DNA of 28,824 bases from a virus. This document shows, piece by piece, positions 545 to 16,004 of this stretch. Position numbers and translations under genes: made by a program. Below the pieces are notes generated by a model that made no database searches, was not told the DNA's origin, and was given only the letters and a program-made list of their open reading frames with translations. Each line of letters opens with the position of its first letter. Position 1 is the stretch's first letter. Location of the stretch: positions 1 through 28,824 of the IMG/VR virus record IMGVR_UViG_3300027607_000128. One strand, written 5' to 3'.

Positions 545-564
545 GAAACACTTTAAATAAGGAC
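545..564 (-). promoter_or_regulatory. degenerate late promoter element upstream of 525
   Basis: On the minus strand GTCCTTA starts at 564. Its TCCT lies exactly 38 bases before the ATG at 525, the same distance as in the three strong copies. The TGTAC half is replaced by GTTTC. It shares the palindrome at 559-575 with the divergent element upstream of 609. Confidence 0.5.
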
Positions 565-575
565 TTACTGTCCTT
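559..575. promoter_or_regulatory. palindrome AAGGAC-TTACT-GTCCTT between divergent genes
   Basis: A perfect 6-base inverted repeat with a 5-base centre lies midway between the genes starting at 525 and 609. Each arm forms the GTCCTT box of one of the two divergent late promoters. A dimeric activator could bind here and serve both directions. This role is inferred. Confidence 0.5.
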
Positions 576-589
576 AAAGATGATTGTAC
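568..589 (+). promoter_or_regulatory. late promoter element upstream of packaging operon
   Basis: CTGTCCTTAAA, six variable bases, then TGTAC, ending 20 bases before the ATG at 609. The same 16 fixed positions, internal spacing and distance to the start codon occur at 5067-5088 (plus) and 15983-16004 (minus). This does not look like the usual Bacteroidota vegetative promoter (TTG and TAnnTTTG), so a phage-specific factor is likely. Confidence 0.75.
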
Positions 590-608
590 AAAAAGGCAAT
601 TTTGGATT

Positions 609-1613
609 ATGGGATTAATCACAAGTATATCAGATATTCAAGCATACCTCAACATCAGTAAGAATTACAAATTTGCTACTTTAAAGCCATTTGTAGATTT
701 GGCTGAGCAGGAATATATCGAACCTCTCATATCGGCTGAATTATATGCCGAATTGGTAGGAGCTAATTCACCTTCTTCAGAGCAAACAAAGTTGATGTAT
801 TTGATAAGAGGTGCTTTGGCCAATTATGCATTATTCGAGGCTATTCCCCATATCAATACACATGTTTCTGAATTGGGCATTCAACAGAGTTACAATGATG
901 ATTTGGACAGTAGTAGGCCAGCCACCAACCAAGCTGCCAATAAGTTAGAGCAGAGTTACCAAAGAAATGGCTATAGATTTGCCGATAGGGTATTACAATA
1001 CTTGGAAGAAAAACATGCTAGTTTTTCGACTTGGGTGCAATCTGATGCTTTTACGCTTACACGTAATAACTTTAATACTAGTAAAAGCGAATTCCAAAAA
1101 TATGTCTATCAGGTAGGTAGCCTCAAGACTTACCAAGCTTTAAGACCACACCTGAACAATGCAGAATTGCAGTATGTGGAACCAGTAATCGGTACAACCT
1201 TATTTAATGCGCTTAAAGCTGCGCTCATTGCTGAAATCAGTGAATCTACTCCTTTAACTGATGCTAATTTTGATTTACTCCAAAAAATCAAACCGGTGGC
1301 CGCTTACTATTCATTATTAGAAGCATTGAGTTTTCTTCCACTGGAAATCAGAGGGAATGGCTTGTACATTATCGAAACACCCAATAGTTCTAGTACTAGG
1401 GCAAGTGCTGATTATAGAAGAACTGAGTCCATTAGAATGGAAGTAGAAAAGAAAGCCAAGTTTTATTCAGATAAACTTAAAAATTTCCTTCAGGAAAATT
1501 CTGATACTTATCCTGATTATAAAACTGAGTCAGACAGCTACGTAGAAAACGCCAGTGACGATTACAGGACACGCTCTGATAATTCAGAAGAAGATAAATC
1601 ATTCTGGATATGA
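609..1613 (+). CDS. DUF6712-like head-tail connector protein, internally duplicated
   Basis: This 334-residue protein has two related halves. Residues about 8-90 (FATLKPFVDLAEQEYIEPLISAELY, then a helix with ALANYALFEAIPHI) match residues about 165-250 (SLKTYQALRPHLNNAELQYVEPVIG, then PVAAYYSLLEALSFL) in order and spacing. The E-Y-[IV]-[ED]-P-[LV]-I core is shared. The pattern resembles the DUF6712 family of Bacteroidota phages, which I take to be connector or adaptor proteins. The C-terminus (from about residue 290) is acidic and Ser/Asp-rich. It is the first gene of the packaging operon, behind a strong late promoter element, and overlaps the next gene by ATGA. Its position near terminase and portal fits a head-tail interface role, but the exact role is inferred. 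Confidence 0.6.
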   Translation: MGLITSISDIQAYLNISKNYKFATLKPFVDLAEQEYIEPLISAELYAELVGANSPSSEQTKLMYLIRGALANYALFEAIPHINTHVSELGIQQSYNDDLDSSRPATNQAANKLEQSYQRNGYRFADRVLQYLEEKHASFSTWVQSDAFTLTRNNFNTSKSEFQKYVYQVGSLKTYQALRPHLNNAELQYVEPVIGTTLFNALKAALIAEISESTPLTDANFDLLQKIKPVAAYYSLLEALSFLPLEIRGNGLYIIETPNSSSTRASADYRRTESIRMEVEKKAKFYSDKLKNFLQENSDTYPDYKTESDSYVENASDDYRTRSDNSEEDKSFWI

Positions 1614-2848
1614 TATTGATAGCACTCATAGGAAATATCTGTACTGGTAAAAGTACAGTGGCTAAATGCCTCAGCCAATTGAATCCAAATTACAAACTTC
1701 TTTCTATAGACGCCTTCAGGTTAAAATACAATCCAGAAGCTACCAAAGAGGGTGAGCACAAGGCCCAAGAGCAACTTAAAAAAGACCTATTATCCAGTAA
1801 GTGGGTTATACTTGAAATGTCAGGTACTTCGCAGCGGTTTGCTAGCCTTTTGCACGAATTTGAGAAACAGGAAGGCAGGAATATCACCGTAAAATTGACT
1901 TGCTCTAGACCTATATTATTACAAAGATTTGTAGAAAGGCAGGAAAGTAATTATCCCAAAATACCCTTTCCTTATGCTATCAAACAGGAAAGCAGCATTC
2001 AGCGTATCGATGCAAGATTGCAAAGTGTATCAGCTGACTTGGTTTTTGATACTTCAAAGATTAAACCTGATGACATTGCACAATCAATCACATCGTATGT
2101 CAAAATAAATGAAATACAAAAGGAAAAAATTATTGAAGAAACGCCCATAAAGATTAGCCCTGTTTCAGAGATATTAGAGTGCATCAAAGATTTTGATTAC
2201 AAGAAAGGACTAGCAATCTTTAAAAAGTATCTACCCACTAAAAAATACCTGTTTAAAAGGTTCAGCAATTTCCATAATAAGAAACACGAAAGGCAGCTAA
2301 AATCTCAATTGAATAGTTTGGCTGCCAGCCCTGAAAAGTTGGTGAGTATAAACGATGTATTGGAAGTAAGCAACATCAGCCAGCAAGCTCAAGAGAATCA
2401 ACATTTCACCCCCAAAAGGGTAGTAGCATATCCTGATACTTTGCAGCAAATGATTATAGAGAGGGGGAAAATGATAAATCAAAAAAAGATACTATCTAAT
2501 AGCCTTCATTTACTGATTAAAAAACCGAATGAATCTAAAATAGCTGTAACCACTATCATTGACCTTAAAAGCAAAATTGATTCTATTGATGGAATACAAA
2601 AGCATTTTGAACGGCATACCAAATTACCTAAGAAGCTGGAGCGCTACGAAAAAACTTATGCATCATTAGAAGATATTGAGCATGCTATAAAATTGGCTAG
2701 ATCCCGGATCAGTAAGAACAAAAGCAAAATGACCAGGGCGCAAGTCAATGGAGATACTGAACTGTACACTAAATACGATTTAGCTATTCAGAAGGAAGAA
2801 GCTTTGATAAAGCAACTGACCATAAAGAAATTAAAATATGGAGACTAA
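1610..2848 (+). CDS. P-loop kinase-like domain fused to a phage C-terminal domain
   Basis: This 412-residue protein starts with a P-loop NTPase domain of the polynucleotide/nucleotide kinase type (residues about 1-165). The Walker A motif is GNICTGKST (8-16), an acidic strand SIDAFR follows at about 32-37, and VKLTCSRPILLQRFVERQ carries the Arg-rich lid typical of kinases. The substrate is unknown. After a lysine-rich linker, residues about 265-412 form a helical domain (RGKMINQKKILSNSLHLL onward) with basic coiled-coil character. The arrangement resembles structural or packaging-associated hypothetical proteins of Bacteroidota phages. It overlaps the connector gene by 4 bases and the small terminase gene by 11, so the three are translationally coupled. 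A kinase domain inside a packaging operon is unusual. The gene could act in DNA-end processing or be a fused accessory enzyme; both are guesses. Confidence 0.6.
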   Translation: MILIALIGNICTGKSTVAKCLSQLNPNYKLLSIDAFRLKYNPEATKEGEHKAQEQLKKDLLSSKWVILEMSGTSQRFASLLHEFEKQEGRNITVKLTCSRPILLQRFVERQESNYPKIPFPYAIKQESSIQRIDARLQSVSADLVFDTSKIKPDDIAQSITSYVKINEIQKEKIIEETPIKISPVSEILECIKDFDYKKGLAIFKKYLPTKKYLFKRFSNFHNKKHERQLKSQLNSLAASPEKLVSINDVLEVSNISQQAQENQHFTPKRVVAYPDTLQQMIIERGKMINQKKILSNSLHLLIKKPNESKIAVTTIIDLKSKIDSIDGIQKHFERHTKLPKKLERYEKTYASLEDIEHAIKLARSRISKNKSKMTRAQVNGDTELYTKYDLAIQKEEALIKQLTIKKLKYGD

Positions 2849-3446
2849 GAAGCAGGCAAAAAAGACCATTATCGAGTGGATTGAACAACAAGAAGGTAAG
2901 GTCAAAAAAACAAAATTTGATAGCCTACTCGATAAGATTTTCAAAGGGGAGGAACTGGATGAAAACCAAGCCATGGCTTGGCAGCGGTACAAGTTTGTAG
3001 TCTCTTTAAGGAACGAAGGCTATAGTAATCCTAGGATAGTGCAACTTATTGAGGAAGAATATGATGTTTCCACCCAGATGGCCTATCGGATTATAAAAGA
3101 AGCCAATCGGGTGTATGGGGAAATTGCCTTTACTGATAAGCAAGCTGAGAAAGCAGTTTACGCGAATAAGTTGGATGAAATTGCTAGAATAGCAACAGAC
3201 ATAGCTTTGGAAAAGACGAAAATTGAAGGAGAAGAAGAGGAAATCTTTGTAGCAGAGAAAAAAGAGCAACATCTATTTTTGTGCCTAGCCAAAGATTGCA
3301 TCAAAGAAGCAGCTGCCATAAAAGGTGTGAACGATAAGGATAACCAGACCAATATTTTAAACATGCCTATCATCAATATCACTTCTGACCCAGAGGCAGC
3401 TAGAAAACAACAAGAACGCGTGATAGACATTAGCCAAGATGATTGA
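2838..3446 (+). CDS. putative terminase small subunit
   Basis: This 202-residue protein lies immediately before the large terminase and overlaps it by 8 bases, the classic position of the small terminase. Residues about 53-92 (VSLRNEGYSNPRIVQLIEEEY...STQMAYRIIKEA) form a convincing helix-turn-helix, expected for recognition of the packaging start site. Residues about 105-165 are charged and helical, compatible with an oligomerisation segment. The C-terminal end is acidic (QERVIDISQDD) and could contact the large subunit. No family-specific motif was found, so the call rests on position, size and the helix-turn-helix. Confidence 0.7.
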   Translation: METKKQAKKTIIEWIEQQEGKVKKTKFDSLLDKIFKGEELDENQAMAWQRYKFVVSLRNEGYSNPRIVQLIEEEYDVSTQMAYRIIKEANRVYGEIAFTDKQAEKAVYANKLDEIARIATDIALEKTKIEGEEEEIFVAEKKEQHLFLCLAKDCIKEAAAIKGVNDKDNQTNILNMPIINITSDPEAARKQQERVIDISQDD

Positions 3447-4860
3447 TGTATTCCTGAATAAGAAACAAGTTGCCTTTTTGAATGCCCCACAAAAGACCAA
3501 AGTATTTATTGGTGGGAGGGGAGGTGGTAAATCGTATACGATTGGTAGTAACCATTCTTTGCGGGCGAAATATCTTCCCAGGGCAAAATATGGATTGGTT
3601 TCAATTACCAAATCTCACTTAAAGAACAATGTTGCTCCTTCCTTGATAAGGGCACTGAAAACCAATGGTTTCCAAGAGGGAAAAGATAAGCATTTTGTGC
3701 GGTACCAGAAACCACCAGCACACTGGGCAGAACCCTATGAAAAACCTGATGATTACAGCGATGTTATCACTTTTAATAATGGATTTACAATACAAATGGT
3801 AAGTACTGCCAAAGGACACAATGCCGATATTATCAGGGGGATGAATTTCGATGGATTGGATATTGATGAAGCAGCGATGGGCTTGGATAAGGAAATTTAT
3901 GATTCTGCCATTATGCCTACGGTCCGAGGCAATTCCTACATTTTTGAAGGTAATCCTTTTCACCAGCAAATATGCTTTTACACTTCTATGCCTTGGCTTT
4001 CTAGTGGCAAATGGTTGCTAGATTTTGAAAAGCTACAAGAGGAATATCCTGATAAGGTTTTCTTTTGCAAGGCGACTAGTTGGGACAATGAACCTGTAAT
4101 CGGCAGGGAAGTGCTAGAGCGTTGGCAAAGGGAAATGAATCCGTTGGAATATCAGGTAGAGATTATGTGTGAAGAAGTAGATACCATTCCCAATACCTAC
4201 TATGATGAATATAACGAGGGCACACATTGCTACACCAATAGCCTCTATTCTAAATTCCAAGATATTGATAGGAGCCAACCTTTAATGATAAGCTTTGATT
4301 TTAATGCAGGCTTTATCTGTTGTGTGGTAGGGCAGTTATTGGGTACTGAGCTGAGACTACAATCTGAGCTATATGTAAAGGGTACAAAGATTATAGACCA
4401 CTTGATCGATCAGTTCTGTAAGGAATTCAAAGGTATGGAAAACAAGATAGAGATATATGGTGACCCACAAGGGCATAAGAGCAACCCCAACAGTACAGAG
4501 ACTTACTTTGATCAAATCTATAGGTTACTAAAGAAGAGAGGATGGAAGCCTAGATTGAAAGCCATGGTAGCCTATCCTGAGCACATCACCAGGCACCATG
4601 TAATCAATAAGATATTGAAAGAAGATAGTACCAAAGTAATCAGGATCAATAGGAGGGAATGCCCCAACCTTTCCACACTACTGAAGAAGACGCCTATCTT
4701 ACCTGATTACAAAAAGGATAAACGTGCAGAGAAAGATACCAACATTCCCCAAGAGCAAGCACCACACCTGACTGATGCTTTTGATTACTTGGTGTACCCA
4801 GTGCTCAACAAATATGTAGAGGGCACTACTTCCAATCTTTCCAAACCTGAGGTTTGGTAA
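3439..4860 (+). CDS. terL: terminase large subunit
   Basis: The 473-residue packaging motor has an N-terminal ATPase and a C-terminal nuclease. Walker A is GGRGGGKS (residues 25-32). Walker B is GLDIDEA (139-145) with the catalytic Glu right after the Asp. An FEGNP coupling motif follows at about 169-173. The RNase H-like nuclease shows its acidic residues in SFDFNAG (Asp287), YGDPQGH (Asp342) and HLTDAFDY (Asp446 or Asp449). The length is normal for the family. The protein cuts concatemeric DNA and drives it into the prohead through the portal, which is encoded just downstream. It overlaps the small terminase gene by 8 bases. No frameshift or loss of key residues is visible. Confidence 0.95.
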   Translation: MIDVFLNKKQVAFLNAPQKTKVFIGGRGGGKSYTIGSNHSLRAKYLPRAKYGLVSITKSHLKNNVAPSLIRALKTNGFQEGKDKHFVRYQKPPAHWAEPYEKPDDYSDVITFNNGFTIQMVSTAKGHNADIIRGMNFDGLDIDEAAMGLDKEIYDSAIMPTVRGNSYIFEGNPFHQQICFYTSMPWLSSGKWLLDFEKLQEEYPDKVFFCKATSWDNEPVIGREVLERWQREMNPLEYQVEIMCEEVDTIPNTYYDEYNEGTHCYTNSLYSKFQDIDRSQPLMISFDFNAGFICCVVGQLLGTELRLQSELYVKGTKIIDHLIDQFCKEFKGMENKIEIYGDPQGHKSNPNSTETYFDQIYRLLKKRGWKPRLKAMVAYPEHITRHHVINKILKEDSTKVIRINRRECPNLSTLLKKTPILPDYKKDKRAEKDTNIPQEQAPHLTDAFDYLVYPVLNKYVEGTTSNLSKPEVW

Positions 4861-5066
4861 CTCAATCCTGATTACAAAAAGGCAATCTCATATATCATCA
4901 AAAAATCCATTTTAAAATTGCCTTTTTGTTAATGTGCGCCGTTCCCTTCTTGTGCTTTTGGTTTAAAAATGATTTTTAAATTCTTGGAAAAGTACAAAGC
5001 TATGAGCTGTAGGATAGATTTTCTCAAATCTTCGGTTTAATCATATTTCATCCAAAATTGCCTTTA
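4861..5066. other. non-coding stretch with inverted AAAAAGGCAAT copies
   Basis: About 206 bases between the large terminase and the next promoter carry ACAAAAAGGCAAT at 4874-4886 and its inverse ATTGCCTTTTTGT at 4917-4929, an 11-base stem with a 30-base loop. A further inverse copy lies at 5053-5064. The same 16-base ACAAAAAGGCAATTTT occurs at 588-603 upstream of the first packaging gene. The stretch could hold a terminator, a packaging (pac or cos) signal or a regulator site. There is also a 23-codon open frame at 4969-5040 with no support. Confidence 0.4.
4874..4929. repeat. inverted repeat ACAAAAAGGCAAT / ATTGCCTTTTTGT
   Basis: The stem arms are at 4874-4886 and 4917-4929, directly after the terminase stop codon. 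The right arm ends in a T run on the plus strand, so a weak terminator is possible, but the loop is long (30 bases). The repeat is shared with 588-603 (plus) and 5053-5064 (minus), which argues for a sequence-specific role. Confidence 0.45.
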
Positions 5067-5088
5067 CTGTCCTTAAAAAGTGATGTAC
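5067..5088 (+). promoter_or_regulatory. late promoter element upstream of portal operon
   Basis: CTGTCCTTAAA-N6-TGTAC, ending 20 bases before the ATG at 5108. It matches the elements at 568-589 and 15983-16004 at all 16 fixed positions with the same spacing. It gives the small gene at 5108 and the portal gene their own late promoter separate from the terminase operon. Confidence 0.75.
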
Positions 5089-5107
5089 CATTACTGATAT
5101 TCACAAT

Positions 5108-5428
5108 ATGTCAGAGATAGGTTTGAAAGCAGCAATAAAATTGGCTGAAACAGAGTTCATCGGCAACGAATTGAATGTCTACTCAATAGGCTATTTTAAA
5201 CAGGATGGCACATTTAATCTAAAAAAAAATATTTGCTCCAAAAACCCTGAAGTAGAAGTAGACCCTGAAAGGCTGAAAAAAGTGGGTACACCAAGTAGTA
5301 AGTCAAAATATACCCCAGCAAATACCAGGACCATGCTTTTTTTCGACCTTCTTACACAAAATTATTTCTCTATCTCCACCGACTTGTGGGTATTAATCAA
5401 CGAATTTAAAATCAACCATAACAAATGA
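5108..5428 (+). CDS. small protein of unknown function upstream of portal
   Basis: This 106-residue protein is not recognised. It starts with a short helix (GLKAAIKLAETEF), then strand-like segments (LNVYSIGYFKQDGTFNL), a charged Pro/Lys-rich middle and a hydrophobic C-terminal helix (TRTMLFFDLLTQNYFSISTDLWVLINEF). No signal peptide or metal-binding motif is seen. The start at 5108 is fixed by its exact distance from the late promoter element. It overlaps the portal gene by ATGA, so the two are co-expressed and translationally coupled, which suggests a head-assembly or portal-related role. A nine-A run in codons near position 5221 could cause slippage but lies well inside the frame. Confidence 0.6.
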   Translation: MSEIGLKAAIKLAETEFIGNELNVYSIGYFKQDGTFNLKKNICSKNPEVEVDPERLKKVGTPSSKSKYTPANTRTMLFFDLLTQNYFSISTDLWVLINEFKINHNK

Positions 5429-6738
5429 GCAGGAAAGTAAAAGCAATTGATGGCATACATTATCTACCAGATGCACAAGCCTTATTAGAGGTAGTACCTA
5501 CTTCTTCAGCTTCTAGAAGGACTACCACGGGTAATCCAAGTCTGACAGGATTGGAAATGGGATTGATATCAAACTACCATGAAGTGCAGTCACATGAGCG
5601 GAATAGGCTACAATATATTCCTTGGGGTGAGGATAATCTTTTTCCTTATAATCTGCTCAGACTGACCATTAAAAACAATATAGCACCTGGTATTATCAAT
5701 ACTAAAATCGATTTTGTATCTGGCAAGAAAATAATCCTTTACAAAGAACATATTGGGGAAAATAAAAAGATAGAAGTAGAAATAGTTGAAGATCCAGAAA
5801 TTGAAGATTGGTTGGAAGAAAATGAAGTGGATGAACAAATGACCAAAATAGTTACGGATGATATTTGGTTTGGCAATTTTGCAGTAGAGTTTATTAGGGC
5901 TAAATCTGGTAAAAAAATAGCGGGATTTAAACATCATGATATGATGACTGTAAGGGCAGCAAATCCTTACAAAAGGATTCCTGTATACAAATATTTACTC
6001 AATGATTGGATAAACGATTATGTAAGTATGGCTACAGAGATTATGAAATTCAAAAGAGAAAAACCTTTTGCTTATCCTAATAGCCTGTACCATGTTTTTA
6101 GATATTTTCCAGGATCATTTTACTATGGTTTGCCTGATTATATAGGTTCAGAAAATTGGATGAGACTAGCCAACAAAATTCCTATTTTCCATGATAAAGG
6201 AATGGACAATACTTATCAGATACGTTGGCATATTCAGATACCCCAAGATTACTTTGAACAATTTGATGGTGATGCAAAAAAAGAAGAAAAACGTTTGCGT
6301 GAAGAGATGAATGATTTTTTGGCTGGAGCACAAAATGCGGGAAAGGCTTTTGTAACACGCTATGCAAAAGACCACAACGGTAACAAAAAAGAAGGTTGGA
6401 TAATTGAACCCGTAAAAGCTGAATATTTTGATGAAGCTTTTGTAAAACTATATGAGCAAAGCAATGTAGCCATAACTAGTTCACATAGTATAGATCCAAG
6501 TATTTCTGGAGTACAGACCCAAGGTAAGCTAAGTTCAGGATCTGACAAACGAATCTCTTATGATATGTTCTTAAAACTAAAAGTACCCAGCTTTAGAAAG
6601 CGGATATTAAAGCCACTTTATGAGGTAAAAAGGGCCAATAACTGGAACAAGAAAATTAAGTTTGGAATGCTTGATTATGAGCTGACCACACTTGATGAAA
6701 AGCATGAAGGAGGTCAAGAAGTAGTACAGGAGGAATAA
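5425..6738 (+). CDS. phage portal protein
   Basis: This 437-residue protein is assigned as portal from its position just after terminase, its size and its sequence character. The N-terminus carries a YIPWGEDNLFPYNLLRLTIKNNIAPGIINTKIDFVSGKKI segment typical of portals of the Bacteroidota phage group. An acidic helix region (IEDWLEENEVDEQMTKIVTDDIWFGNFAVEFI) follows, then a stretch around FVTRYAKD and SSHSIDPSISGVQTQGKLSSGSDKRISYDMFLKLKVPSFRKRILKPLYEV that resembles the end of the portal stem/clip region. The protein would form the dodecameric ring at the capsid vertex that binds terminase and the neck. It is the last gene of the plus-strand module and runs toward the minus-strand accessory pair. 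The C-terminus is Glu-rich. Confidence 0.8.
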   Translation: MSRKVKAIDGIHYLPDAQALLEVVPTSSASRRTTTGNPSLTGLEMGLISNYHEVQSHERNRLQYIPWGEDNLFPYNLLRLTIKNNIAPGIINTKIDFVSGKKIILYKEHIGENKKIEVEIVEDPEIEDWLEENEVDEQMTKIVTDDIWFGNFAVEFIRAKSGKKIAGFKHHDMMTVRAANPYKRIPVYKYLLNDWINDYVSMATEIMKFKREKPFAYPNSLYHVFRYFPGSFYYGLPDYIGSENWMRLANKIPIFHDKGMDNTYQIRWHIQIPQDYFEQFDGDAKKEEKRLREEMNDFLAGAQNAGKAFVTRYAKDHNGNKKEGWIIEPVKAEYFDEAFVKLYEQSNVAITSSHSIDPSISGVQTQGKLSSGSDKRISYDMFLKLKVPSFRKRILKPLYEVKRANNWNKKIKFGMLDYELTTLDEKHEGGQEVVQEE

Positions 6739-6747
6739 TCTGAAAAG

Positions 6748-6766
6748 TAAATTTTATTAAAATTTA
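6748..6766. terminator. AT-only palindrome between convergent genes
   Basis: TAAATTTTA-T-TAAAATTTA is a perfect 9-base inverted repeat just after the portal gene, and it includes the stop codon of the opposing gene. It may act as a weak bidirectional terminator. The absence of GC pairs makes this uncertain. Confidence 0.3.
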
Positions 6767-7255
6767 AATACTTTCTAGGTTAATAACATAAACTCTTTCG
6801 AACATTTCACTTACATTATTTTGTGTTGTTTCTGAATTCTTATTGAAAAGTAGATAAGCATTATAGGGGTCTTCATTGATATGAACAAACTTATTTGGTG
6901 AAAATACATTTTCCATTATTCTTTTGTAAATAGGATATCTTTTATCTACACCTATAAATCCAAATGATGCTTTAGGATATTCTTTATACATATCAATCAT
7001 TATATGTAAACAAGTGTTTATAATTCTTGAGGTGTCGCCAAAGTTAGATACAATTTTATACTTATTTACAGAATTAGCATGCTCTTTAAGATGGAATTTT
7101 ACTACAAAAATTTGATATTCATACTCTTCAACATTTACAATATATCTGTGATTATTTTTAGCTCTAAAAGCAAATTTGTGTTCAAATAGAAAAGGCTCAT
7201 TAGTTGAGCCTTTTATTCTTTGTATTTTTACATAATCGTAATACTCATTGAACAT
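6764..7255 (-). CDS. accessory protein of unknown function (gene 2 of cassette)
   Basis: This 163-residue alpha/beta protein has no signal or membrane segment. The order is strands (residues 5-65), a helix beginning SRIINTCLHIMIDMYKEYP, a strand ASFGFIGVDKRY, then a helix YKRIMENVF and a final strand. The pattern 'helix - KEYP - strand - GxxxRY - YxRI' recalls small Bacteroidota families such as DUF6169/DUF6934. This is a weak resemblance from memory, not a confirmed hit. The ATG at 7255 lies one base after the stop of the upstream partner, so the two form an operon. The pair sits between two virion operons and has its own AT-rich codon use, fitting a cargo (moron) cassette. A strong hairpin lies within its first 22 codons (see 7190-7214). 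Confidence 0.5.
   Translation of the reverse strand: MFNEYYDYVKIQRIKGSTNEPFLFEHKFAFRAKNNHRYIVNVEEYEYQIFVVKFHLKEHANSVNKYKIVSNFGDTSRIINTCLHIMIDMYKEYPKASFGFIGVDKRYPIYKRIMENVFSPNKFVHINEDPYNAYLLFNKNSETTQNNVSEMFERVYVINLESI
7190..7214. terminator. terminator-like hairpin inside the start of gene 6764-7255
   Basis: AAAAGGCTCA-TTAGT-TGAGCCTTTT is a perfect 10-base stem with a 5-base loop and T runs on both strands. It lies within codons 14-22 of the gene. On the plus strand it would stop transcription from the portal operon before it enters the cassette. On the minus strand it could attenuate the second cassette gene. Confidence 0.5.
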
Positions 7256-7256
7256 A

Positions 7257-7826
7257 TCACAATTTATATTCGTAGGCCTTGGTTCTGTTTTCCCACAATT
7301 CTGCTTCGGTTCTAATATTGAAAAATTTCGTCTTATCTTCTTTTACATCAAAAGAGTTGACATAATCCATTATCTTATCTCTGGTTTCTAGATACTCGAC
7401 ACTTGCATTCCAAATTTTACGTAAACCATACTTTATTCCCCATGTAATATCTCCCTTTGAATCATCAAATTCTAACTTTCCAGACTCTTTGATTTTTTTA
7501 AAATCAATTTTTCCTCTAAAATCATTAATTCTATCTAACTCTATCCTAATAAACCTATACTCTTTCGTTGAGGGATTTTCCTTTGCTAAAATTTCAATAA
7601 TTTTTTCCGTTCTGGAAACTATAGCGTAAGAAGCTTTTTTTAAAATAGTATAATAAGATAAATCAGTAAAAATATCAGAAACAGCTCTAATTGCTTTTGA
7701 TATCAGATTACTATCTGGTACTTCAACATTATCATTGATTGGAATTGAAATATCCTTTGACCCTATTATAGGACCAATATTCAATGATAAATTATTATTA
7801 TATGATATTTGTTGATTTACTTGCAT
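7257..7826 (-). CDS. accessory protein of unknown function (gene 1 of cassette)
   Basis: This 189-residue protein is read from the ATG at 7826. A TTG at 7847 would add seven residues and is less likely. It has a polar Asn-rich start, then mostly helices: SNLISKAIRAVSDIFTDLSYY, a basic segment with SRTEKIIEILAKENPS, and a C-terminal region rich in aromatic and charged residues (WGIKYGLRKIWNASVEYLETRDKIMDYV). No known motif was identified. It lacks a transmembrane segment. It is transcribed ahead of the 6764-7255 gene with one base between stop and start, a spacing common in toxin-antitoxin or defence pairs. That function is only a possibility. The AT-rich region upstream (7827-7915) may hold its own promoter. 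Confidence 0.5.
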   Translation of the reverse strand: MQVNQQISYNNNLSLNIGPIIGSKDISIPINDNVEVPDSNLISKAIRAVSDIFTDLSYYTILKKASYAIVSRTEKIIEILAKENPSTKEYRFIRIELDRINDFRGKIDFKKIKESGKLEFDDSKGDITWGIKYGLRKIWNASVEYLETRDKIMDYVNSFDVKEDKTKFFNIRTEAELWENRTKAYEYKL

Positions 7827-7915
7827 AACACGGTAATCAATGAACAAAATACATTTATTTTACCTAACTATTCAAGTATTTAACAAAATTTTGCAGAAAT
7901 AATTACTATTAAATT
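7827..7915 (-). promoter_or_regulatory. AT-rich region with possible Bacteroidota-type promoter
   Basis: On the minus strand a TTG and a TATTTTG lie 21 bases apart, ending about 20 bases before the ATG at 7826. This resembles the Bacteroidota vegetative promoter (TTG plus TAnnTTTG) but misses one position. It would let the cassette be expressed independently of the late genes. Confidence 0.3.
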
Positions 7916-8553: not shown

Positions 8554-9848
8554 TTTATTAAAAATAATTCTGCTTGTACCACAAAATGTAGCCGTTTATC
8601 ATGATTGGCTTTTATATTGGTACGGAGCTGTTTAACAAAAAAATTTAATCCATCTAACTGTATAGGTCTAGTAAAATCCAATGCTGCCAATTGAGTTGCT
8701 GACATAAAAATATTTCTCTTTACCAGTTTGGTAGTAGCCAAAAAATTTAACCACTTTTCCCAAAATCTAGGAACCAAGTCGCCCCAGCGAAGACTGAAAT
8801 TTGGTCCTGTATATTTTACATAATTATCAGAATCATCAAAAAACAATAATACCCTAGGGTTAAAACCAGAATCCATTTCCCAGAGGTTGGGCAAGAAACT
8901 AAAAGTACTTGTTATTGGATTTTCACCACCCCCAAATTGATAAGGCTCGTACAGATCTTGTCTATCTTCCAAGGCCACTTCTTGGGTATTGGCATAGTCA
9001 AAAGTATACCCCTTATTGCCTTCATAATGCGATTTAAAATATTCGGCCGCATAATTTTTTATGATTTGAGGATTTAGATTATCCAATAAATCTTGGCAAT
9101 GTCCTACCAATATCTTTTTATTCTGTTTATCAGGCTGTACGTATAAACAAAATAACTTGGTCAATGCATCCAGTAATTCTAAATAAGTAGTATTATCAGG
9201 AAATCGATAGCGGTTATCCCCATAGTATCTCGTGCCACCGGGAGGTTTTTGATTAAAAAATACCAGGTTATTCAAATCTGTATCCCAGTTCAATTCAAAT
9301 TCCCATGCGGAATTACTTAAACTGGAAAGTAATGCAGAATACATATAGTAAAATGCTATATTGAAACCAAATGCTCCAGCTGAGGTATCATTTTCACCTC
9401 TTCCACGCCTTACTGGCCTGTTACTATCATTATTGATTATCCCTTCCCAAAAACTATTGTTTACTTCCAAATAAGGGAAAAGATTGGTAGCTGATGCAGG
9501 GATTCCCATTTGCAATTCAAGATTGCTCAATTCAGTCTTTAACTTACCCTGTAGGTTTACTTCATAATCACCTGTCCCTGGTTCAGCCAGAACTAAATCC
9601 CCCTCAAAAATTTCAATACCATTCCATAACACTGTACAAACTACAGTTTCACTATCAGAGTCAGTATCCAGCATTTCAGGAAAACCCAAAATACGCTGGT
9701 TATTCTTAGATTTTGGAAGATTGAAATTATAAGAATGTGATTTGAAAAGCTCATTTATCCCCTGAAAAACAAAATTGTTCAACTCCAAAGGTATAGAAGT
9801 ATCCCTATAAAAATCCAATGCTTTACCGTTTACCAATAATTCCAGCAT
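8550..9848 (-). CDS. putative tail tip / baseplate protein
   Basis: This 432-residue protein starts LELLVNGKALDFYRDTSIPLELNNFVFQG and continues with SHSYNFNLPKSKNNQRILGFP, a beginning seen in tail-associated proteins of Bacteroidota prophages. The sequence is strand-rich. A central part includes LELLDALTKLFCLYVQPDKQNKKILVGHCQDLLDNL, reminiscent of the hub domain of tail-associated proteins. No lytic domain is recognised. It overlaps the gene upstream by TGATG and the lysis gene by ATGA. Its position at the 3' end of the tail module, before lysis, fits a tip or baseplate component. Exact equivalence to Dit or Tal is not established. Confidence 0.6.
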   Translation of the reverse strand: MLELLVNGKALDFYRDTSIPLELNNFVFQGINELFKSHSYNFNLPKSKNNQRILGFPEMLDTDSDSETVVCTVLWNGIEIFEGDLVLAEPGTGDYEVNLQGKLKTELSNLELQMGIPASATNLFPYLEVNNSFWEGIINNDSNRPVRRGRGENDTSAGAFGFNIAFYYMYSALLSSLSNSAWEFELNWDTDLNNLVFFNQKPPGGTRYYGDNRYRFPDNTTYLELLDALTKLFCLYVQPDKQNKKILVGHCQDLLDNLNPQIIKNYAAEYFKSHYEGNKGYTFDYANTQEVALEDRQDLYEPYQFGGGENPITSTFSFLPNLWEMDSGFNPRVLLFFDDSDNYVKYTGPNFSLRWGDLVPRFWEKWLNFLATTKLVKRNIFMSATQLAALDFTRPIQLDGLNFFVKQLRTNIKANHDKRLHFVVQAELFLIK

Positions 9849-11488
9849 CAGTCCAATTTTATAAGTGAAATAGATTCAATCCTACCAACAAAAGGCCCTG
9901 TTGAATGCAAACTTTGAGAAGCTGCTATAATGAAAGGATTCAGGAAATTTTGCGTAGCTGTAAATGTAACTGAAATGATACCTGCTTCTCCAATATTCAA
10001 GGCAGCTGGATAAAATGCAGGACCATTAACAGCATCAAAAATCCTAAAGGAACCACTCAGATAATTACTGATATTGACAGTTAACTTATATAGACTGCCT
10101 GCCACAATAGTTTCAGCCATATCGAAATTAGCCTCTAATGCCAACTGATAATCACTTCCTACATTACCATACCAATCCATATAAATGTGGTAATAACTAA
10201 ATCCAACCTCCCAAGCCCCAGCATCAAGTTTAATATGCCAATCTCCAGATGGATCAACATCACTATTTACATTTTCAAGATCTAAGTCTTCTAACAATTC
10301 CAATGAACCACCAGGTCCACCAAGTTCAGCTAATGATTCACGGGCTACGAACCTTCCAAAACTTTCCCTTACAAAAGCCTCTCTAAATGCAAAGGTCAAC
10401 CCAATCAGTTCATTGTTTTTTTCATAATAGATAAACTCTAAATTGTCTACTTCAACTGGAGTAAATTCCCCTTTTGAAAGTATCAATATTTCTTGAGAGT
10501 GGACAAAATCATGCAATGCTTCTGGCTCATCCAACTCCAACCAACCTGTATTTGCATTACCACCTAAAAAACTTTGGATATCTGTTGATATCCCCTTCCT
10601 AAAAACTCCTTCTTTCGATAAAGCAAATCCCTTACTACTATTTACCAATTTATTGAAATCACCATTAGCAATAAGAGTATCATATCCTCCCAAACTGTTT
10701 TGATAAAGAAAGGACATTTTTTCTAGTGTCAGTTGCTCAATTAAATGGTATTTAAAAAATTCAGAAATGACCACATCAGATCCATCTGCCAACCAAATCG
10801 ACCATCCTAGTACTGTTTTGCCAGCTTCCTTATTATCTGCTATTTGCAGATTACTATATCCTGATCTAACTGTTACAATTCCTTTTATAAAAGAAGCAGA
10901 ATAAGCTTGATAATCAGTATTTGAACCATCGGTGTAATGAATCCTTACTTTAAGCCTTACTGTACCATCAACTGTTAAAAAATAACTTAAAAATTCAGGC
11001 ACATCATGAGTGGTAAATTTTGGATCAGGTTGTGAAGTCAAGAACTTACCAGTATTGATAAAAGATGCTTGAGAAGCATAAGAAAAACCTGGTCTTTCAA
11101 ATCCTGATGGTATACTCAAAAAATTTACTTGTTGCTGTAAAACTGGGTCAGCATCATTAATAATCTCATAGATTATTAAGGTGAAATAATGTTCAGTAAC
11201 AGTTTGATAGATCAAATTGGAAGTAAACCTAGGTGGTTCAGGTTCACAGAATGCATTCAAGTGATCCTGGATCTCAAATTCTACATTTCCCTGGTCATCT
11301 ACAGAACGGGAACGTTTAATGATCAATTCTTGAGGTGTAAAGCTGCTATTTGAACGATGTAATTCAATGACAGCATAGTATTTATCATAAGCATAATCAT
11401 TGCTTTGAAGGCTTAAATAAACTTTGTTCCATGCCCATGCAATGTCTGCTGAATCATCCCAGCTTTTATATGTAATAGAAAGTGCCAT
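9848..11488 (-). CDS. large tail protein with C-terminal jelly-roll-like region
   Basis: The start is taken as the ATG at 11488, giving 546 residues, because it overlaps the upstream stop as TAATG. A TTG four codons earlier is less likely. The N-terminal half is beta-rich (ALSITYKSWDDSADIAWAWNKVYLSLQSN, then repeated short strands with Ser/Thr). A linker with ELGGPGGSLELLEDLDLENVNSD occurs near residue 395-415. The last 135 residues (GDWHIKLDAGAWEVGFSY...SGSFRIFD...GRIESISLI) read like a carbohydrate-binding jelly roll. It lies between the tail terminator-like gene and the tail-tip gene, so it is probably a baseplate or receptor-binding protein. No catalytic motif was found. Confidence 0.55.
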   Translation of the reverse strand: MALSITYKSWDDSADIAWAWNKVYLSLQSNDYAYDKYYAVIELHRSNSSFTPQELIIKRSRSVDDQGNVEFEIQDHLNAFCEPEPPRFTSNLIYQTVTEHYFTLIIYEIINDADPVLQQQVNFLSIPSGFERPGFSYASQASFINTGKFLTSQPDPKFTTHDVPEFLSYFLTVDGTVRLKVRIHYTDGSNTDYQAYSASFIKGIVTVRSGYSNLQIADNKEAGKTVLGWSIWLADGSDVVISEFFKYHLIEQLTLEKMSFLYQNSLGGYDTLIANGDFNKLVNSSKGFALSKEGVFRKGISTDIQSFLGGNANTGWLELDEPEALHDFVHSQEILILSKGEFTPVEVDNLEFIYYEKNNELIGLTFAFREAFVRESFGRFVARESLAELGGPGGSLELLEDLDLENVNSDVDPSGDWHIKLDAGAWEVGFSYYHIYMDWYGNVGSDYQLALEANFDMAETIVAGSLYKLTVNISNYLSGSFRIFDAVNGPAFYPAALNIGEAGIISVTFTATQNFLNPFIIAASQSLHSTGPFVGRIESISLIKLD

Positions 11489-11955
11489 TATACATCCCAA
11501 AAGTTTTCATCAGTACAGATCGAGTTTGGAAAAGAAGTATTGATAGTTACCCTCCAACCAACTACATTATCATGCAAGCCCCCTGTGATGGGTTCAAATT
11601 TCAATACATCCAGCTGTTCTTCCATATCAAAATCTTCCAATACTTTTATTGCTATCTGCTCGGCATAATGTTCAAGTTTTTCATTTAGCAAAGTATCCTG
11701 TTTGTCATAATCATCCAGTTCTACTTCTTCTATGATTGCAAAGCCAATATTATAATTTCTATATGCATCAGAGATTCCATTGGAAAATCCTTTTTCAGGT
11801 ATTTCCAAGAAAAGACAAGGATATTCCATCTCCGATTCCAAGTCTTCAATAACCCTTCTGTAACTGCCGTATTTGAAAGTATTGATTTTGGTAGTCTGGC
11901 TTACCAAACCCTCAAAATAAGTTTTGATGGATGCTATGTTATTGAACTCAGGCAT
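11488..11955 (-). CDS. putative tail terminator / neck protein
   Basis: This 155-residue alpha/beta protein starts with a helix (NNIASIKTYFEGLV), then strands (EYPCLFLEIPEKGF, YRNYNIGFAIIEEVE), a long helix (DTLLNEKLEHYAEQIAIKVLEDF) and final strands ending DNVVGWRVTINTSFPNSICTDENFW. This helix-strand-strand-helix-strand order is seen in phage tail terminator and minor tail proteins. The assignment is by overall pattern only. It overlaps the chaperone-like gene upstream by 8 bases and the next gene as TAATG, so it is part of the late operon. Confidence 0.45.
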   Translation of the reverse strand: MPEFNNIASIKTYFEGLVSQTTKINTFKYGSYRRVIEDLESEMEYPCLFLEIPEKGFSNGISDAYRNYNIGFAIIEEVELDDYDKQDTLLNEKLEHYAEQIAIKVLEDFDMEEQLDVLKFEPITGGLHDNVVGWRVTINTSFPNSICTDENFWDV

Positions 11956-12700
11956 TTTTTAAACTTTCAGCTTCAAGATGTTTTTTTGTCAAAATTAAGC
12001 ATATCTCTGAAATAGGTGTTTCCTTTACTTTATCCAGATTACCAACAATACCAGTTTCTGCAATAGCTATAAAAGTACCAGCCCATCCCAGTTGATCATT
12101 ACCACCTTCGTTATTAAAAATAGTTTTATACTTTTTCCTCAACCTATCCAAGTTTGCAGACATATATAACAATGCCGAGGCTTTTATCCTGTAGTCCAAA
12201 TCCTTGAATAAAACAGTCCTTTCTTTTATACCTTTTTCCTTCAGTTTTACCCTTTTATCGCCCCATTTATTTTCTTTTCCAGCTTCACGGAAAATTACAG
12301 CACAAAGTGAATCCAACTTGTCTTCATCTTCTTTCATAGCATTCATAAAACCATTTGCCAAGGCAAACTCAAATCCTATAAACCCCCGAAAAGATTCTAA
12401 AGGAGCAAGATATTGTTGTCCTTTATGTTTGAACTCCCTGAAGAAGCAATATTCTGGTAGCTTTTCTACTGTTATCCAGTCCAACAATACCAGGAGCTGA
12501 GCAAGTTGTACTTCATTTAATCTGTTTAGTAAAAAAGCCTTACTTCCTGCCAACGAAACAAGAAAAAGGCTTTTCATATCTAATGGATTATCTGAATACT
12601 GTAAAAACAGATTGATATAAACTTTTATCTGTTTGGTATCCAGTTCATCAAAACTAGCTGGTATATTGAATCTATGGGTGTCTAACTTTATTTCATGCAT
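11948..12700 (-). CDS. tail assembly chaperone-like protein
   Basis: This 250-residue, mostly helical protein has the start HEIKLDTHRFNIPASFDELDTKQIKVYINLFLQ. It follows the tail tube gene, where tail assembly chaperones are normally encoded. The middle contains ALANGFMNAMKEDEDKLDSLCAVIFRE and a basic stretch (GDKRVKLKEKGIKERTVLF). The C-terminus is helical and ends in acidic/basic residues. No slippery sequence for a programmed frameshift was found, unlike many chaperone pairs. The gene starts at 12700, sharing one base with the stop of the tube gene (TAATG). The call is positional; no family motif confirms it. Confidence 0.45.
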   Translation of the reverse strand: MHEIKLDTHRFNIPASFDELDTKQIKVYINLFLQYSDNPLDMKSLFLVSLAGSKAFLLNRLNEVQLAQLLVLLDWITVEKLPEYCFFREFKHKGQQYLAPLESFRGFIGFEFALANGFMNAMKEDEDKLDSLCAVIFREAGKENKWGDKRVKLKEKGIKERTVLFKDLDYRIKASALLYMSANLDRLRKKYKTIFNNEGGNDQLGWAGTFIAIAETGIVGNLDKVKETPISEICLILTKKHLEAESLKNA

Positions 12701-13221
12701 TAAGATGTTGGGATAAGTCCCTGATATTCGAATGGAGGATTTTGAGAACTTACAATTTTTAGATTAAAGCTCATCTCATTTCTGTCATTTCCTCCTTTGC
12801 CACCTGTCGTTCCTTCTGATGGATCTACTGCTTCTAATGGTTCTACTAAATCTCCAAGTAACCAAGCTTTCCCATTTGTATCGATAGCAATACCAATCAT
12901 ATCAGTATTGTTCATTTTATCGATGGCTTTTAATATAGCTGCCCTTAATTTTGGAATTCTTACTTCAATAGAACTGGTCCAACTCTTACCCTTTTGTAGA
13001 CCTTGGGTTGCTATGTTCAGCCTAGCATTTTCATCTTTGATAAAATCAACTTTTTTCCAAAACTTACCAGTCACTAAAGTTAAGTCAGATGCAATCACCC
13101 CATCCACATCTGCAGGAATGGCTTCTACATCAACTTGAGGTATATAGTAAAACTCTGATAGACCAGCGGCATTTTTTTCACATCCTATGCCCAGGATAGC
13201 ATCTAAATCACATGCAGACAT
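12700..13221 (-). CDS. putative tail tube protein
   Basis: This 173-residue protein has a strand-rich core and a C-terminal GGKGGNDRNEMSFNLKIVSSQNPPFEYQG segment of the type seen at the end of tail tube proteins, where a Gly/Asn/Arg loop precedes the last two strands. The start MSACDLDAILGIGCEKNAAGLSEFYYIP is typical of tube or capsid-attached proteins in Bacteroidota phages. It lies two small genes after the major capsid gene and ahead of the chaperone-like gene, as expected for a tube. No tape measure gene follows in this operon. Confidence 0.6.
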   Translation of the reverse strand: MSACDLDAILGIGCEKNAAGLSEFYYIPQVDVEAIPADVDGVIASDLTLVTGKFWKKVDFIKDENARLNIATQGLQKGKSWTSSIEVRIPKLRAAILKAIDKMNNTDMIGIAIDTNGKAWLLGDLVEPLEAVDPSEGTTGGKGGNDRNEMSFNLKIVSSQNPPFEYQGLIPTS

Positions 13222-13247
13222 ATCAAATTAATTTAAAAGGTTTCCAA

Positions 13248-13466
13248 TTACTTTTTTGTACTTACAGCTGCCTTTTCTACTTTCTTGAAAAAGTCAGGAC
13301 ACTTATCAAGCAATGCTTTTAGAAACTTTTGATTGTAAGGTTTCGCCTGACCTTTTTGAAGCTTTTCAAGGCTTTTTATATCATGCTTTGCCACAGTATT
13401 CTCAAATCTGAATTGAAAGCCAGATAAGAGCAACTTATAAGTTTCGTTTCCTATTTTAAATTCCAT
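13248..13466 (-). CDS. small protein between capsid and tail genes (A)
   Basis: This 72-residue protein is not recognised. Its start, FKIGNETYKLLLSGFQF, matches the neighbour at 13468-13686 (LIGKEKYQISVHGFYL) in the pattern IGxExYxxxxxGF. It continues with a basic helix, KSLEKLQKGQAKP, and ends in a Lys/Ala-rich stretch. The ATG at 13466 lies one base past the stop of that neighbour. Its place between capsid and tail tube would suit a head-tail joining or decoration role. Confidence 0.5.
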   Translation of the reverse strand: MEFKIGNETYKLLLSGFQFRFENTVAKHDIKSLEKLQKGQAKPYNQKFLKALLDKCPDFFKKVEKAAVSTKK

Positions 13467-13467
13467 G

Positions 13468-13686
13468 TTATACTGCTTTTAAAATGTTTTGGCCTTCAAT
13501 CGCCAATACTTTAGTGAGTATTAATGCGAATTCAGAAGGGTCTTTTGTGATTTCTGATGCTAGATACTTTTTGCCATCAAGGTAAAAACCATGAACTGAG
13601 ATTTGATATTTTTCCTTACCAATCAAAAGGATATCTTTTGAGGTAGCCTCTTCATTTTCTGCTGTTTTTTTTGTCACTTTTGCCAT
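13468..13686 (-). CDS. small protein between capsid and tail genes (B)
   Basis: This 72-residue protein is not recognised. It has a charged N-terminus (AKVTKKTAENEEATSKD), then ILLIGKEKYQISVHGFYLDGKKYLASEI and a helix DPSEFALILTKVLAIEG. It shares the short IGxExYxxxxxGF pattern with the next gene and may be its paralogue. It starts 41 bases after the major capsid gene stop and is in the same operon. Confidence 0.5.
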   Translation of the reverse strand: MAKVTKKTAENEEATSKDILLIGKEKYQISVHGFYLDGKKYLASEITKDPSEFALILTKVLAIEGQNILKAV

Positions 13687-13726
13687 GAAATAAACTTTAC
13701 TGGTTGACTAAAAATTAAGATTACAA

Positions 13727-14695
13727 TTAGGCTTGGTCATTCACGATTAAGTAATCTTTCCCATCAATTTCAAAAGCAGATATGCCTACACCAATCTTAC
13801 CATCTACTAATAGATTGATGTTCCTTTTTTCCTTTTCTACAATAATTCGTTCTGTATCAGACATCAGGTCCATGCCAATTTGAAGAATCCCTTTAGGTGC
13901 GATAACCACTCTACCAGAGCCTTCCAGTCCAGGTAAAGGTTGAATTCCTGCGTTACCCTCTGATATCTCCAATACAGGTTGTTTAAATGAATTGTAAGTC
14001 ATGTGGTCACCATAATTTTCTTTATAGTTTAGATAATAATTACTGGCTGTATTATGACTACAGAAAATATCAACCCCTTTATATTTCAGTTCCTCAGGCA
14101 ATGCTTTCCACATATCCTGCAATTTTTCTACTGCATTGTCTTTAGTGATTGCACCAGTTGCTACTGGAGTAATCGTAGTAGCAGTAATTGCATCTGCTAT
14201 TATCTTCAAAAATCCATCACAAACTTCCAATGGATTGACAACATTGGCTGCTGCTGCCGTTCCTGAATTATAGACACCTTTCCAGATGATACGTTCCATG
14301 GTATCCTTTATTCGAGCATAAATCTGTTCCATTATAAACAGCTCAAAAGGATATTTGTAAGGATCACTGCCACTGGCCATTAATTTGGCAGTCCATTTTC
14401 TATGTTCTTTGATTGGATTGATAGTTAAATCAACCTGCCATTGCCTTACCTTTAATATCCTGCTTACATAATCCAATGCACCAGTTGTGGGATTCCAACC
14501 TTCTTCTTTACCTACCTGCACAATTTCCTTGATAAAGGGAGTGACCATTGGTTCTTCATCCTTTATGTCTTGATACACATCAATATACCTGGCAGACTTA
14601 AACCCAAGCATTTCTTGTTGGTACAAGAGGTAACCATCACCTCTATTGTAAGCGCCTAAAACAGCATCTAAATTACTATAATCAATCGCACTCAT
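13727..14695 (-). CDS. major capsid protein
   Basis: This 322-residue protein directly follows the protease/scaffold gene, the standard position of the major capsid gene. The N-terminal part (DYSNLDAVLGAYNRGDGYLLYQQEMLGFKSARYIDVYQDIKDE) precedes a helix-rich segment (IMEQIYARIKDTMERIIWKGVYN) like the long spine helix of HK97-type capsids. Later segments include DIFCSHNTASNYYLNYKENYGD and GSGRVVIAPKGILQIGMDLMSDTERIIVEKEKRNINLLVDGKIGVGISAF, typical of the axial domain strands. No Ig-like extra domain is present. The ATG at 14695 is 2 bases past the stop codon of the protease gene. The fold is inferred from pattern, not from a search. Confidence 0.8.
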   Translation of the reverse strand: MSAIDYSNLDAVLGAYNRGDGYLLYQQEMLGFKSARYIDVYQDIKDEEPMVTPFIKEIVQVGKEEGWNPTTGALDYVSRILKVRQWQVDLTINPIKEHRKWTAKLMASGSDPYKYPFELFIMEQIYARIKDTMERIIWKGVYNSGTAAAANVVNPLEVCDGFLKIIADAITATTITPVATGAITKDNAVEKLQDMWKALPEELKYKGVDIFCSHNTASNYYLNYKENYGDHMTYNSFKQPVLEISEGNAGIQPLPGLEGSGRVVIAPKGILQIGMDLMSDTERIIVEKEKRNINLLVDGKIGVGISAFEIDGKDYLIVNDQA

Positions 14696-14697
14696 TA

Positions 14698-15963
14698 TTA
14701 CTCATTAATTTTGTTTAAAACCTTTAATTTTTTGTGCCTTTCAACAGCCTCTTTCATCCATGGCGTATTGTTCCAAGGCTTGTTAGCATTGCTTGCGCTA
14801 TCTCCAGCATCGCTGCCAGGAATTACCTGTGTGCCATTATTCTCAGCAGTCTTATCCAGTTTAGTTTCTAGTTCAGATACTTTATCAGTTAGTTGGTTAT
14901 TGGTTGCTTGCAGCTCTCCAACTTCTTTTTCCATGGTATCTTTTTCAGCCTGTAAACTAGCCAATTGCTGCTCTAACTCTTTCACTTTCGCTTCAGCAGC
15001 TTCTTTGGCTTCAATGGCCTCGTTTACTTTTTCCAGTTTTTCTTCTTGTTCGCTATTGCTCATACCAAAGAACCTTTCAATGGCATTGTATTTTTTACTT
15101 TGCATTTTTGCTTCATTTTTTATTTCAAAAATCTTATTAACCGCATCTTCAAAAGTGCCCATACTATCTGCTAAGCCTGCTTTAATGGCACTATTGCCCA
15201 TATAATGTTTCCCTTCAAAAACATCCCTTTCATACTCACTGGATATTTTATCCCCTCTGTAGCTTTTGATATTTTGAATGAAAGATTTTGCTACCTCGTC
15301 CAACTCATCCTTCATAGGGTTTAAATCTCCTTCTTGATAGGCTCTATGGTCATGGTTCTTTTGGGGAGATACCCTTGCATAAATTGCTTTTCTTTCTATA
15401 CCTCTAGCAGCATAATAATTAGAGAAATCCCAGAAGCTCATCATGGTACCGATAGAACCGAGTAGATCGGAAGCATCACTGACCACGATATGTTCTGTAC
15501 TGGCTGCAATGCCATAGGCAGCTGAGGCAGCCATGCCATCTACAAATGCCACCACAGGTTTTTGGGTTTGTGTAATCACATTTTCCAACAACCTATGTGC
15601 ACCAGCAGAACCGCCTGGGCTATCAATTACCAACACAGTTCCTGCAATCTCAGGGTCATTGTCAAATTCTTTTATATCCTGTACCAATGACTTTGTTCCA
15701 CGAGCACCAGAAAATTGGTCATACTTTGTGACCGTACCCCTTAAATAGGCTACGCCAACATTTTTGGGTTCTTTTTGAGTAGAAGATGATAAAGTATAAA
15801 TCTCAGGTCTGTTTCTTGCCCTAGCCTCTGACCAATCAATATCTTCTGGCTTTCCTTCTCCCATGATGATATCATATACCAAAGGAAACATTGCAGTAGC
15901 AGCATTTTCTTCAATGTGCCAAATTCCTTTTGCGATATCATTTAATAGTTCATCCCTGATCAT
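14698..15963 (-). CDS. S49 family prohead protease fused to coiled-coil scaffold
   Basis: The ATG at 15963 (421 residues) is preferred over an in-frame TTG at 15978 because it lies exactly 38 bases from the late promoter element, as in the other late operons. Residues about 65-280 form an S49 (SppA-like) serine protease: strand VLVIDSPGGSAG (110-121), nucleophile region MAASAAYGIA with Ser147, then LLGSIGTMMSF. The general-base Lys is probably Lys202 (RVSPQKN), about 55 residues later as in SppA-type enzymes. Residues about 305-376 form a Glu/Lys/Ala-rich coiled coil, then a polar end. This fused arrangement is known for phage prohead proteases with an internal scaffold. The coiled coil would guide capsid assembly and be removed at maturation. 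Confidence 0.85.
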   Translation of the reverse strand: MIRDELLNDIAKGIWHIEENAATAMFPLVYDIIMGEGKPEDIDWSEARARNRPEIYTLSSSTQKEPKNVGVAYLRGTVTKYDQFSGARGTKSLVQDIKEFDNDPEIAGTVLVIDSPGGSAGAHRLLENVITQTQKPVVAFVDGMAASAAYGIAASTEHIVVSDASDLLGSIGTMMSFWDFSNYYAARGIERKAIYARVSPQKNHDHRAYQEGDLNPMKDELDEVAKSFIQNIKSYRGDKISSEYERDVFEGKHYMGNSAIKAGLADSMGTFEDAVNKIFEIKNEAKMQSKKYNAIERFFGMSNSEQEEKLEKVNEAIEAKEAAEAKVKELEQQLASLQAEKDTMEKEVGELQATNNQLTDKVSELETKLDKTAENNGTQVIPGSDAGDSASNANKPWNNTPWMKEAVERHKKLKVLNKINE

Positions 15964-15982
15964 GTTACAATTATCCAATATT

Positions 15983-16004
15983 GTACAGGGTATTTTAAGG
16001 ACAG
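15983..16004 (-). promoter_or_regulatory. late promoter element upstream of capsid/tail operon
   Basis: CTGTCCTTAAA-N6-TGTAC on the minus strand, ending 20 bases before the ATG at 15963. It starts right after the stop codon of the depolymerase gene, so the protease, capsid, tail and lysis genes get their own late promoter. Confidence 0.75.

Follow-up and report, generated by a model that had tools for sequence, protein, structure and literature searches.

A GTCC box at a fixed distance from the start codon in late promoters of Bacteroidota phages

Copies of the element in the window

The virus record IMGVR_UViG_3300027607_000128 was analysed over 28,824 nucleotides (nt); this 28.8-kb stretch is the window, and positions below are in its numbering. 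Its terminase, portal, protease and capsid proteins resemble those of Bacteroidota temperate phages such as Polaribacter phage Leef_1, Flavobacterium phage 6H and the Microcystis-labelled phage Mea-Yong924-1. The element in question, CTGTCCTTAAA-N6-TGTAC, was found by motif search without mismatch at 568-589 (+), 5067-5088 (+) and 15983-16004 (-), and in a control with the 16-bp motif four or more matches with up to three mismatches were reached in none of 100 dinucleotide shuffles. These copies belong to promoters 1, 3 and 4, which lie ahead of the packaging, portal and capsid/tail operons, as stated in the original prediction made from the window. The fixed distance to the start codon claimed there is also exact, with a gap of 19 nt between TGTAC and ATG in each case, and the open reading frames (ORFs) opened encode 334, 106 and 421 amino acids (aa). 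The start codon behind the third copy is ATG 15963, rather than the upstream TTG. The first gene of the packaging operon is the 334-aa DUF6712/adaptor gene (Pfam DUF6712; ATG 609). The features are as follows.

568-589 (+): late promoter 1, upstream element, exact copy; core TGTCCTTAAA at 569-578 and lineage-specific TGTAC at 585-589
597-604 (+): promoter 1, -7-like box CAATTTTG; ATG 609 four bases later
556-565 (-): promoter 2 (divergent), core AGTCCTTATT, starting at 565, 40 nt ahead of ATG 525
530-537 (-): promoter 2, perfect -7-like box GATTTTTG; ATG 525
5067-5088 (+): promoter 3, upstream element, ahead of the small gene and portal operon
5096-5103 (+): promoter 3, degenerate -7-like box GATATTCA; ATG 5108
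15983-16004 (-): promoter 4, upstream element, ahead of the head protease, capsid and tail operon
15968-15975 (-): promoter 4, -7-like box GATAATTG; ATG 15963
20101-20110 (-): weak promoter 5, core AGTCCTCAAT, starting at 20110; ATG 20070 at 40 nt
609-4860 (+): packaging operon with DUF6712/adaptor, AAA protein, putative TerS and terminase large subunit
ATG 525 (-): 174-aa gene behind promoter 2, of a family common to 20 phages
5108-6738 (+): 106-aa protein and portal
13727-15963 (-): head protease (S49) and major capsid protein
20098-20712 (-): 204-aa candidate late regulator; an additional HTH_28 domain at its C-terminus

Promoters 2 and 5 correspond to a weaker copy (545-564) and a doubtful one (20090-20109) that had been proposed to share the distance, and both do, so that the GTCC core is exactly 40 nt ahead of ATG in all five copies. 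Promoter 5 matches three of the four -7 positions and its core falls within the last bases of the candidate regulator gene, a layout shown also by prophage locus L447. Among the 57 [ACT]GTCC sites of the window, an ATG with an ORF of at least 60 aa is found at 40 nt in five, and each other distance from 20 to 79 nt gives 0 or 1. As judged by the bare count of four bases, two further tetramers also score 5 in the window; hence the case for the element rests on the full motif and on the relatives.

The cores of promoters 1 and 2 form an inverted repeat, TAAGGAC-TTACT-GTCCTTA. At these divergent promoters (545-589), whose cores are about 5 bases apart, a single dimer or a pair of bound monomers could drive transcription in both directions.

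Motif, spacing and genetic context in related phages

About 95–100 related viral loci, representing one broad phage group, were gathered by terminase and capsid alignments. The alignments retrieved relatives, while the terminase and then the candidate regulator, used as single-protein IMG/VR queries, gave none. Gene starts are ORF-based, and related sites were de-duplicated by similarity only, so the counts below are not fully independent.

Exact matches to the 16-bp motif in IMG/VR numbered two, both judged to be chance, and a relaxed search of the relatives for the window's own motif gave no match. De novo comparison of upstream regions within each phage revealed a common TGTCCTT core. When every hexamer was scored at every distance upstream of ATG in the approximately 100 relatives, TGTCCT at 40 nt ranked first, with 95 observed against 5.5 expected (z = 36). 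Absence of enrichment ahead of orthologous late genes in relatives had been named beforehand as the outcome that would speak against the element; the enrichment is present. The exact 16-bp pattern is thus private to this phage, as its dialect: the TGTCC core and the distance generalise, and TGTAC, included in the shared element as originally described, is a local feature. TGTAC was also considered as a second universal block and rejected, positions 16-20 being weak in the alignment of the relatives.

The general layout is [T/C]GTCCTWTTT - N~19 - [G/C]AnnTTtG - N3-Y - ATG. Counted from the core, [T/C]GTCCTWTTT occupies positions 0-9, [G/C]AnnTTtG positions 28-35, the pyrimidine position 39 and ATG position 40. 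In an alignment of 102 unique sites, A29 is conserved in 87, T32 in 91, T33 in 97 and G35 in 73, and ATG stands at 40 nt in 73. Selection of two-block promoters blind to ATG gave 126, as compared with 0-4 for six permuted cores, and 70 of the 126 have ATG at exactly 40 nt.

The same pattern was recovered from larger collections. IMG/VR gave at least 120 rows for the real pattern, and among the matches listed 125/134 open an ORF; the permuted-core control gave 42 matches in total, 11 of them opening an ORF. In genome contigs, most real-pattern matches are in Bacteroidota, in several classes, and an ORF is opened by 45/60 Bacteroidota matches versus 3/21 from other phyla or of unknown origin. 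In 50 phage records, TGTCCT-N34-ATG has approximately 83 matches and the reversed pattern 11. The variant of the core with C as the first base was seen both in the hexamer scan and in comparisons of dialects between phages; thus phages G002, G006, G014 and G029 carry CGTCCTA instead of TGTCC. A differing dialect, AACGCC[C/T]CCGTTACTA, stands ahead of late genes at 476 and 30871 in phage G012.

The operons that begin behind these promoters were compared in 34 complete or near-complete phages. They start with the small gene before portal (14), the packaging operon (12), the protease (9) or a tail gene (8), and families downstream of pattern matches include head protease, portal, tape measure and endolysin. 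The element is conserved before orthologous late operons, and its reading as a late-promoter element is supported.

Two other genes of the window deserve mention. Directly upstream of promoter 4, in the tail region, 16005-17558 (-) encodes an alginate-lyase-like protein that may be a depolymerase. The 21510-23360 (+) gene, in a stretch of low GC (~27%), encodes a NACHT/STAND NTPase whose C-terminal domain is SNaCT13, and may be a defence gene carried by the phage.

The -7 box and the predicted transcription start

The sigma-A promoter of Bacteroidota has TTTG at -33 and TAnnTTTG at -7, and in Flavobacterium johnsoniae the latter box is T-12 A-11 H H T-8 T-7 T-6 G-5 (PMC6847099). According to the original prediction, the element does not match this promoter. 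This is not supported: downstream of the core, at 28-35 nt, there is a -7 box of sigma-A type, and it is the -33 region that is replaced, [T/C]GTCCTWTTT standing in place of TTTG. In the 102-site alignment, the sigma-A features A29, TT32-33 and G35 are kept, G is depleted at positions 30-31 between A and TT, and the first T is not kept. Among the promoters scored for leader length, this first base is C or G in 57/69.

With G35 taken as -5 by the F. johnsoniae spacing, the predicted +1 is position 40, the A of ATG. In 78 of 119 scorable promoters ATG falls at the predicted +1 ±1, and these are leaderless by position (predicted leader 0±1 nt). Leaders of 2-9 nt are predicted for 1, of 10-20 nt for 25 and of 21-59 nt for 13. 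In the same sequences, only 29/324 sigma-A-like boxes that have no core give a leader of 0±1 nt. Position 39 (-1) is a pyrimidine in 64/69 leaderless cases. Position 40 is a purine in 26/38 leadered cases, and this, together with the pyrimidine at -1, fits a +1 at position 40. In Leef_1 (NC_062750.1), the predicted +1 coincides with the A of an ATG at 1848, 2515 and 34630, while a further one, at 509, precedes ATG 511 by 2 nt. The near absence of leaders of 2-9 nt (1/119) looks as if ribosomes start on an AUG at the very 5' end or else need 10 nt or more of leader.

The spacing implies that most late mRNAs of these phages would be leaderless; this predicted consequence of the fixed distance, with ATG at about +1, was missed in the original prediction. 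In published host maps, leaderless mRNAs are rare (5.5% in Flavobacterium psychrophilum; PMC9723704), and 3.7% of 5' untranslated regions in Bacteroides thetaiotaomicron are under 10 nt (PMC7366714). Shine-Dalgarno sequences are not relied on by Bacteroidota (PMC6847099).

The reader of the upstream box and alternative explanations

The promoter layout is well supported, and from it we infer the start sites and the mode of reading. Host RNA polymerase with sigma-A would read a weakened -7 box, [G/C]AnnTTtG rather than TAnnTTTG, while [T/C]GTCCTWTTT at about -40 to -31 would replace the -33 region and be bound by a phage-encoded activator, for which the 20098-20712 family is the best candidate. 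Transcription would begin about four bases past the -7 box, at the A of ATG in roughly two thirds of promoters. With +1 at this position, most late operons would open with a leaderless mRNA and the distance from core to ATG would be frozen at 40 nt; the remaining promoters would give leaders of 10 nt or more. That a wide group of Bacteroidota phages has late promoters with a phage box in place of -33, and mostly leaderless late mRNAs, is given a probability of roughly 0.8. More tentative, and rather doubtful as a whole, is the extended proposal that, in temperate phages across Bacteroidota classes, host sigma-A is directed to late promoters of the GTCC type by a protein family without a recognised fold, the same architecture coupling this to a leaderless-translation switch in which leaders of 2-9 nt are forbidden.

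The arrangement may be compared with known systems. In the T4 middle promoters (MotA/AsiA), a phage box takes the place of -35 and a host -10-type box is kept. The element likewise has a phage box replacing -33/-35 and a host-type box; its sequence, the phylum of its hosts and the proteins are different, with no homologue of MotA or AsiA recognised, and late promoters are concerned. Mu C, P2 Ogr and lambda Q, the last an antiterminator, are phage late regulators. A small phage protein for late transcription is the role proposed also for the candidate, which however has no detected sequence or fold similarity to them. Thermus phage P23-45 has leaderless phage transcripts. The likeness is an AUG at or near +1, predicted here, for many phage genes; the differences are that the present hosts rarely use leaderless mRNAs (3.7-5.5% in the published maps) and that each promoter has a phage-specific upstream box. 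As compared with the host sigma-A promoter, the element shares A, TT, t, G, their distance to the start as predicted here and the depletion of G between A and TT, whereas its first -7 base is mostly C/G, its -33 is replaced and it occurs in phages and scarcely in hosts. Of the six sigma motifs SM1-SM6 of F. psychrophilum, SM1-3 have variants of TAnnTTTG where the element has its -7 box, but no motif of the set is reported to carry TGTCC upstream or to define a late regulon of phages (PMC9723704). A description of the element was not found in the literature (open-licence papers).

The 20098-20712 family comprises basic, unannotated proteins of 150-200 aa and is the sole near-universal shared family that is neither a virion protein nor an integrase. 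It is present in 47/50 phage records, the three lacking it being fragments of ~30 kb or less, and in 1/99 host genomes. The single host copy adjoins phage-like genes, and its 3' end carries a CGTCCTA box that stands 40 nt ahead of an ATG, as in the window (20110/20098). The window member is matched by a family hidden Markov model built without it (E = 7e-6), and the Leef_1 candidate is gp39 (29520-29993). Comparison of the regulator with Pfam, PHROGs and PDB sequences gave no informative match, while AlphaFold models of the family are confident (predicted local distance difference test scores 87.5 and 84.8). A TGTCC promoter precedes the family gene itself by 42 nt in G020 and 54 nt in G027, which suggests that the gene may be autoregulated. 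The next motif promoter lies within 1.5 kb behind the regulator gene in 13/73 cases versus 235/1967 background ORFs, which is not a strong signal. By association, the family is the leading candidate for the reader.

Further features were observed near the family gene. Downstream of this gene, G020 (24231, +) and G027 (27880, -) have a TGTCCTTTTT promoter that is strong and conserved and has no ORF behind; it possibly serves a small RNA or leader. In G050, the match to the candidate at 24034-24509 (-) is split, with internal stops, and two TGTCC promoters remain; the gene is broken or the sequence contains an error.

Several observations weigh against the mechanism as proposed. Flavobacterium phage 6H has another core, TGTCTTAAA, with leaders of at least 10 nt; G012 has core AACGCCnCCGTTAC, with CGTTAC at 40 nt from ATG; and the -7 box of promoter 3 in the window is degenerate. 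Most family members have no recognised DNA-binding domain, HTH_28 being found only in the window member and no Pfam match for the other 28, and the predicted fold had no match in PDB below E = 1. Once capsid, portal and terminase divergence are allowed for, that of the candidate is no predictor of the motif dialect (partial Mantel r = 0.15, p ~0.09), and portal divergence correlates with dialect better than that of the candidate does.

This outcome, and the other regulators encoded by Leef_1 and 6H, would fit a different phage protein as the activator, e.g. a LuxR-like regulator for which some of these phages have an annotated gene. This is a serious possibility, though it falls short of an even chance; the LuxR-like cluster occurs in 10/34 genomes only, and the proposed family alone is near-universal among non-virion, non-integrase proteins.

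A phage-encoded alternative sigma factor that reads both blocks, instead of host sigma-A with an activator, is improbable. The off-consensus first -7 base and an upstream box that is strong and does not resemble the host -33 would agree with it. However, Sigma70 region 2 was not detected in 19 motif-bearing phages, while control genomes do match, and for region 4 only a weak sub-threshold helix-turn-helix was seen, in 5 of the motif-bearing phages. AnnTTtG and the depletion of G at 30-31 furthermore match the host sigma-A -7 element (PMC6847099).

A host transcription factor or host alternative sigma factor is an equally unlikely reader. A shared host factor could allow the element to be kept across very different phages (terminases 25-50% identical). 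However, the strict pattern occurs in 5/296 Bacteroidota genomes (~1 Gb), against the ~83 looser matches in 50 phage records, so that the element is nearly absent before host genes; in a second phylum (298 genomes) it was found in none outside the centre genome. Strict-pattern searches would overlook dialects, yet together these counts make a host regulon unlikely. Dialects also differ per phage, and the published F. psychrophilum sigma motifs do not include the element (PMC9723704). A specific phage-encoded reader, as originally suggested, is therefore likely, host chromosomes being nearly free of the element. Separately, in alignment A4 (L269-L348, genome contigs), nine host DJ-1/PfpI and AraC-type regulator genes have TGTCCTTT...TTTG...ATG upstream, which may be a separate host element or reflect shared ancestry.

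An mRNA element that guides late-gene translation at a fixed distance from AUG would account for the spacing in bacteria not reliant on Shine-Dalgarno sequences (PMC6847099), but is very improbable. A -7-like box sits between the element and ATG, and about a third of the promoters keep both blocks yet have ATG 10 or more nt further. Moreover, an intrinsic terminator adjoins the core in 32/126 promoters (0.4 in shuffles), leaving no room for an upstream promoter; hence the box is unlikely to lie within the downstream mRNA. Chance or a repeat artefact confined to one window, for which just three exact copies might speak, is refuted by the hexamer scan, the 102-site alignment, the ATG-blind selection and the IMG/VR controls in relatives.

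How Bacteroidota phages, common in the gut and in many waters, control their late genes has largely gone undescribed. The phage-box promoter with a retained -7 box gives an annotation rule for late operons and their true start codons, and names one candidate protein. It also offers a natural set of predicted leaderless mRNAs in a phylum that seldom initiates by either the leaderless or the Shine-Dalgarno route, and the bimodal predicted leader length, 0 or at least 10 nt, would allow the way in which these ribosomes initiate to be tested cleanly.

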